A stretch of DNA of 42,317 bases from Clostridia bacterium. Lineage in GTDB: Bacteria > Bacillota > Clostridia > Christensenellales > CAG-314. The translations under genes were made by a program, and so were the position numbers. Every line of letters starts with the position of its first letter. Position 1 is the stretch's first letter. Location of the stretch: NCBI GenBank assembly GCA_017409765.1, contig JAFQSA010000013.1, positions 1-42,317 of the forward strand, written 5' to 3'. The notes below the pieces were generated by a model. That model searched no databases. It was given only the letters and a program-made list of their open reading frames with translations, and was not told the DNA's origin. Positions 42,113 to 42,317 of the stretch are shown here, piece after piece.

Positions 42113-42137
42113 AAAAAAAGAACACCCACGGGGTGTT
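42113..42137 (-). terminator. Intrinsic terminator of the 16S transcript
   Basis: On the minus strand AACACCC (42137-42131), loop CGT, GGGTGTT (42127-42121), then C and seven T (42119-42113). It lies about 145 nt beyond the 16S 3' end with no tRNA or 23S in between. Confidence 0.75.
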
Positions 42138-42281
42138 ACTATGATGCTTTTAACAGAACAGAAGAAGAAATGCACAGTTTCGGGTTTGTTACTGTTTTGA
42201 GTGGGTAACTCCACTTTCGTAATTCCGTGAGTACTTAGTGCTCACTCGACTTGGATGGTAGACATCTCTGTCTACTCCCTT
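42138..42281 (-). other. 16S rRNA 3' trailer with processing hairpins
   Basis: It contains two hairpins next to the 16S end: GTAGACA-TCTC-TGTCTAC and GTGAG...CTCAC. These are plausible RNase processing structures. No tRNA-Ile, tRNA-Ala or other gene is found in it. Confidence 0.55.
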
Positions 42282-42317
42282 AAAGGAGGTGATCCAGCCG
42301 CACCTTCCGATACGGCT
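42282..42317 (-). rRNA. rrs: 16S ribosomal RNA, 3' end (partial, continues beyond the window)
   Basis: The minus strand reads GGTGCGGCTGGATCACCTCCTTT at the 3' end, the universal end of bacterial 16S rRNA with the anti-Shine-Dalgarno CCTCC. Only the last 36 or so bases are in the window. The sequence stops at a place where assemblies often break, since rRNA genes are repeated. Confidence 0.95.

Follow-up and report, generated by a model that had tools for sequence, protein, structure and literature searches.

A 16S rRNA gene unlinked from 23S and predicted to form its own transcription unit in a Clostridia bacterium and in many relatives of its order

The stretch of DNA analysed here, called the window, is the whole of contig C4 (42,317 nt) of a draft Clostridia genome (57 contigs totalling 1.455 Mb; completeness 92.1%), and it ends inside a 16S rRNA gene. 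Thirty-six nucleotides of the 16S 3′ end, reaching the anti-Shine-Dalgarno, lie within the window (Table 1) and correspond to profile positions 1475-1510; since the window is the whole contig, the body of the gene lies outside it. Rfam lists only one tRNA in the window because this 36-nt stretch falls below the Rfam cut-off; that tRNA, a tRNA-Arg far from the 16S end, is the sole tRNA of the window. Past the 16S stand two hairpins and a weaker third, followed by an intrinsic terminator, with the end of its T run some 170 nt beyond the gene, and then a protein gene on the opposite strand. The first-pass annotation had reported the two hairpins, the terminator, the opposite-strand gene and the lack of a 23S or tRNA after the 16S, all of which were found again, and had called the hairpins processing-type, a label that is taken up below.

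Table 1. Features at and near the 16S 3′ end, in positions of the window
Feature	Position	Strand	Basis
16S 3′ end	42282-42317	-	profile match, E 3.3e-8
Trailer hairpin 1, 7-bp stem	42258-42275	-	predicted fold
Trailer hairpin 2	42227-42245	-	predicted fold
Third hairpin, weaker	42200-42215	-	predicted fold
Trailer half of proposed 16S processing stem	42146-42178	-	predicted duplex with C49 and C30 leaders
Intrinsic terminator stem-loop: 7 bp, 4 of 7 pairs GC, loop 3	42121-42137	-	terminator scan
Terminator T run, C then seven T	42113-42120	-	terminator scan
Second terminator-like hairpin (stem-loop 41961 to 41940) with long T run, possible back-up	41930-41961	-	terminator scan
Terminator-like site between convergent ORF and 16S unit	41789-41815	both	terminator scan
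Convergent ORF, 150 aa, HELMH (zinc-protease-like by eye); neighbour only	41295-41747	+	
Repeat-like stretch	40985-41180		
DUF1846 protein	39335-40813		Pfam, E 4.3e-169
tRNA-Arg	31609-31683		

Scanning of both strands between 41200 and 42317 gave 4 terminator-like sites, compared with a shuffle mean of 0.6 (sd 0.9). A Pfam search with the convergent ORF returned no match. The DUF1846 protein encoded near the 16S locus was not found beside the 16S in the relatives tested. Between these two genes lies a stretch that resembles a repeat, with CCTCCGGGAGG-type arms in inverted orientation; parts of it, 45-52 nt long, are found again on C30, C57, C13 and C17, four further places in the genome, at 80-90% identity.

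An Rfam search of the source genome for whole 16S and 23S genes gave no match (controls were detected in 9/14 and 10/14), because its rRNA genes are present only as fragments at contig ends, which were recovered by DNA searches using the leaders and flanks of relatives. Two copies of the 16S 5′ side were recovered, at C49:1-190 and C30:29953-30128, and their leaders are near-identical from the start region into the 16S and differ upstream of it. C16 ends in the 23S 5′ side (from 13395), which has a predicted promoter of its own at 13149-13177 and no 16S in the 13.4 kb upstream, far beyond the 1500 bp before a 23S that the criterion covers. The 23S 3′ side was found on C35, where the 5S follows 139 nt later, so that 23S and 5S stand together. 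Two or more 16S loci and a 23S-5S unit apart from them are thus present in the genome, and no 23S was found in the window's 42.3 kb after the 16S, where the criterion asks for none in the first 1500 bp, bearing out the earlier claim that this 16S is unlinked from 23S. The genome-wide check of rRNA linkage that the first-pass annotation had recommended could be carried through in part: it is clear for the 23S 5′ end, and for 16S only one 3′ end was recovered despite two 5′ ends.

Each of the two source-genome leaders carries a predicted promoter before the 16S, consisting of TTGACA, a 17-nt spacer and a -10 box. The same design recurs at 24 of 24 leader places in the genus (14 of 25 genomes), where TTGACA (TTGACT in one case) is followed after 17 nt by a TA...T box that immediately precedes a shared start region, a pattern that was counted without a chance control and that also matches the reverse strand of many leaders. 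Two leaders were found in 10 of the 14 genus genomes having leaders. Promoters of the same kind, with a spacer of 17 or 18, precede the 23S units of G000, G012, G022, G031 and G032, standing about 570 nt upstream of the 23S in G032. At L107, L108 and L111, the 16S and 23S units closely resemble each other in start region (GTAAGCTGTC) and in promoter spacing. Such a shared start region and spacing suggests that the 16S and 23S units may be regulated in common.

The trailer of the window is predicted to pair with both leaders of its own genome. The duplex with the C49 leader has a calculated energy of -56.9 kcal/mol vs. a shuffled-trailer mean of -42.4 (4 of 300 shuffles as good), and that with the C30 leader -54.4 kcal/mol vs. 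-40.3 (2 of 300 as good), the core on the trailer side lying upstream of the terminator. A comparable leader–trailer duplex was obtained in all 13 family members tried, where the leader from GCTTGA (or a variant) to ACAGTC finds its best partner in the trailer stretch upstream of the terminator; the parts entering this comparison were chosen by motif, the G004 trailer by the very motif under test. No terminator was found in G026, and that of G031 lies some 45 nt further on. Changes on both sides of the duplex were observed as well: AGAATAGTAAG goes with CTTACTATTCT in most of the genus, AGAATAGAAG with CTTCTGTTCT in the source genome and G002, and GAATAAGCGAAC with GTTCGCTTATTC in G035. When each leader of the 13 family members was offered its own and all other trailers, its own ranked first in 4/13 and among the top three in 9/13, the remaining ranks being 4 (G016), 5 (G022), 7 (G023) and 8 (G005). 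A cruder, only moderately telling single-helix version of this comparison across 34 genomes placed the own trailer first in 11/34, with the source genome 3rd and G031 32nd.

Both hairpins adjoining the 16S sit inside this leader–trailer stem. Across ten genus trailers, 10 of the 30 predicted pairs show both-sided changes, including two pairs in hairpin 1 and 5 of the 7 predicted pairs in hairpin 2. The hairpins called processing-type by the first-pass annotation are present as predicted folds; however, the main processing signal is probably not these hairpins but the longer stem formed with the leader, which would close around the 16S alone.

Taken together, the 16S gene very probably forms a transcription unit of its own, unlinked from 23S, as judged from its sequence anatomy, the predicted pairing and its recurrence in relatives, and the lack of linkage. 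RNA polymerase would start at the consensus promoter about 140 nt upstream of the 16S and produce a leader that carries a hairpin at its 5′ end and the motif CTTGAAAAC, which we take to be boxA-like, followed by the 16S and the trailer, and transcription would stop at the intrinsic terminator. Leader and trailer would then pair into a single long stem enclosing the 16S, which a double-strand nuclease, presumably RNase III, would cut. The 23S and 5S would be made from a second unit elsewhere, whose promoter of the same design could keep the two units in step.

The distribution of this arrangement was examined across the order, which is very probably Christensenellales. Of its 396 genomes searched, 96 contain an exact 16S 3′ end and 300 do not, the sample being assembled 16S ends only. 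The census comprises 91 of these 96 genomes together with G002, G040, G067 and G090, i.e., 110 places in 95 genomes. Five genomes with less than 1.5 kb downstream (G363, G293, G321, G268 and G215), further copies in G391, G304, G209, G074 and G184, places in G033 and G034, and a second place in G040 were left out; in G004 the contig begins past the 16S end. With unlinked defined as no 23S within 1.5 kb after the 16S, the criterion given in the available text of PMC8178347, 81 places are unlinked (74 genomes, 12 families), 25 are linked (17 genomes, 5 families) and 4 have too little sequence, so that 74 of the 91 classifiable genomes are unlinked. The unlinked families are f1 (15 genomes), f6 (7), f8 (1), f10 (1), f14 (2), f17 (8), f19 (4), f24 (9), f28 (6), f29 (2), f30 (1) and f32 (18), and the linked ones f3 (3), f4 (4), f23 (1), f31 (8) and f33 (1); no family is mixed. 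In the family of the source genome, none of the 15 classifiable genomes (source genome included) has an ordinary linked rrn operon, taken as a 23S within about 1 kb after the 16S, often with tRNA-Ala and tRNA-Ile. The earlier remark that unlinked rRNA genes are not typical of Clostridia does not hold for Christensenellales, where 12 of the 17 classifiable families are unlinked, and it does hold for the five linked families, among them f31, which is probably Christensenellaceae. Within the genomes sampled, a stand-alone 16S is thus characteristic of a large part of the order, and the earlier reading was right but too narrow.

A terminator-like site within 450 nt after the 16S was found at 60 of the 81 unlinked places vs. 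none of the 25 linked ones, in a scan run over the census without a shuffle control; the other 21 unlinked places gave no site, and one unclassified place with tRNAs after the 16S (G402, f15) was positive. The unlinked genomes used are multi-contig drafts of about 0.8-2.5 Mb, and a run of N falls within 1.5 kb downstream at one of the 81 unlinked places. No whole 16S was found in the genus genomes searched, and a partial one in 2/25. In G038, however, a contig of 342 kb holds a whole, unlinked 16S that is followed by a further 9.4 kb. Eleven records carry a family-type trailer, with samples that include roe deer caecum, goat rectum and 'Lapin' (read as rabbit), and the relatives come largely from animal guts.

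At three loci in three families, L197 (G357), L166 (G204) and L038 (G031), 16S and 23S lie on the same strand 5.2-6.3 kb apart, the distance in G031 including a 100-N scaffold gap. The ORFs between 16S and 23S in these genomes gave no mutual matches at E 1e-3, and therefore no shared insertion was seen. In G204, tRNA-Ala and tRNA-Ile stand directly upstream of the 23S. An apparent 1-kb insert in the G031 23S was rejected, being a run of N.

The first alternative is a mixed genome, in which the window 16S would be an orphan and another copy would belong to an ordinary 16S-23S-5S operon, a reading that overlaps with a separate unit as far as the window copy is concerned and that we consider improbable. 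It would fit the single 3′ end recovered for at least two 16S copies, and mixed genomes exist in Clostridia, Cellulosilyticum lentocellum being called mixed type in the available text of PMC8178347. However, the sole 23S 5′ end found in the source genome is the one on C16 with no 16S before it, the census genomes with at least two examined places are uniform in 12 of 12 cases (6 all unlinked, 6 all linked), and in G007, of the same genus, both 16S 3′ ends are followed by the trailer and by over 8.8 kb without a 23S.

An assembly artefact, with the contig edge misjoined at a repeated 16S so that the flank comes from elsewhere, is very improbable. The contig does end within a 16S whose 5′ side occurs twice, and the gene order past the trailer is unlike that of relatives (five window proteins compared with 20 loci gave one weak match, at 31% identity). 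However, the trailer is predicted to pair with the leaders of its own genome, including the change in both halves common to G002, and it is 89% identical to the G002 trailer, with about 380 nt at the 16S end matching G002 DNA. Fourteen other genomes of the family also lack a 23S after the 16S, and at 17 of the 81 unlinked places in the census the contig extends for 1450 nt or more upstream of the 16S 3′ end (mostly N in G204). Finally, boxA is an rrn antitermination signal and the leaders carry a boxA-like motif, but a single long transcript that reads through the terminator to a distant 23S is scarcely credible in view of the 42 kb of window without a 23S, the promoter predicted for the 23S itself, and G357, where 5.5 kb without N runs and with ORFs on both strands separates 16S and 23S.

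For the separate 16S unit, a 16S tree of 37 rows bears on its history, with the root placed at the midpoint and all data being 16S. The 17 unlinked rows all group within a single 22-row clade (support 100/99), which also holds two f15 rows, two linked f3 rows and one unclassified f1 row; the remaining 14 linked rows and G057 lie outside. The f15 rows on the tree have tRNA-Ala/Ile after the 16S and are probably linked, and counting them as linked would require three linkage changes. The history may have been one split followed by two rejoinings, or several splits. The f3 operons at L155, L156 and L157 have a spacer of 348-406 nt in which no tRNA was found, and two of these three genomes, those in the 16S tree, are nested among unlinked families; it is possible that they are rejoined operons. 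It is likely, at lower confidence than the unit itself, that the stand-alone 16S unit with its promoter, processing stem and terminator is clade-wide and long-kept in much of Christensenellales, with f15 and f3 nested as retained or rejoined operons.

Unlinked rRNA genes are a known kind, as the first-pass annotation had noted for some bacterial lineages; the Christensenellales case was not met in the literature searched, where, among the titles and abstract openings of the matches listed, the order is nowhere named as unlinked. In the accessible part of PMC7761764, 574 of 15,521 complete genomes are unlinked and 270 mixed, and its main text, searched for 'Clostridi' and 'Firmicutes', contains neither term. 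According to the available text of PMC8178347, unlinked rRNA genes went undetected in the human gut by Brewer et al. 2020, and in the horse gut were seen in reads assigned to Lachnospiraceae, Clostridiales or Firmicutes. The present case shares with the unlinked genes of these studies the absence of a 23S within 1.5 kb after the 16S, but concerns 12 families in one order of Clostridia known mainly from metagenomes. Cellulosilyticum lentocellum, likewise of Clostridia and with some of its rRNA genes unlinked, has linked copies too and is assigned to Lachnospiraceae in that text (PMC8178347).

Two further comparisons come from the available text of PMC8172020. In CPR bacteria the trait is also clade-specific, with 23S at a great distance from 16S or with opposite-strand genes in between; however, these bacteria are a distant group, some of them also split 23S from 5S, which stay together here where seen, and an analysis of a leader–trailer stem and terminator is absent from the portion of that text available. 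Buchnera and Wolbachia likewise have separate 16S and 23S-5S units, but are obligate symbionts with small genomes, whereas the genomes here are drafts of about 0.8-2.5 Mb, many of the relatives being from gut.

Surveys that rely on a long amplicon reaching from the 16S to the 23S gene are unable to amplify these bacteria, and so would miss a set of families, several of them from gut. The findings extend the range of unlinked rRNA genes to an order of Clostridia in which close relatives have ordinary operons, which makes the order suited to asking what causes operons to split, whether they can be joined again, and by what means separate units stay balanced.
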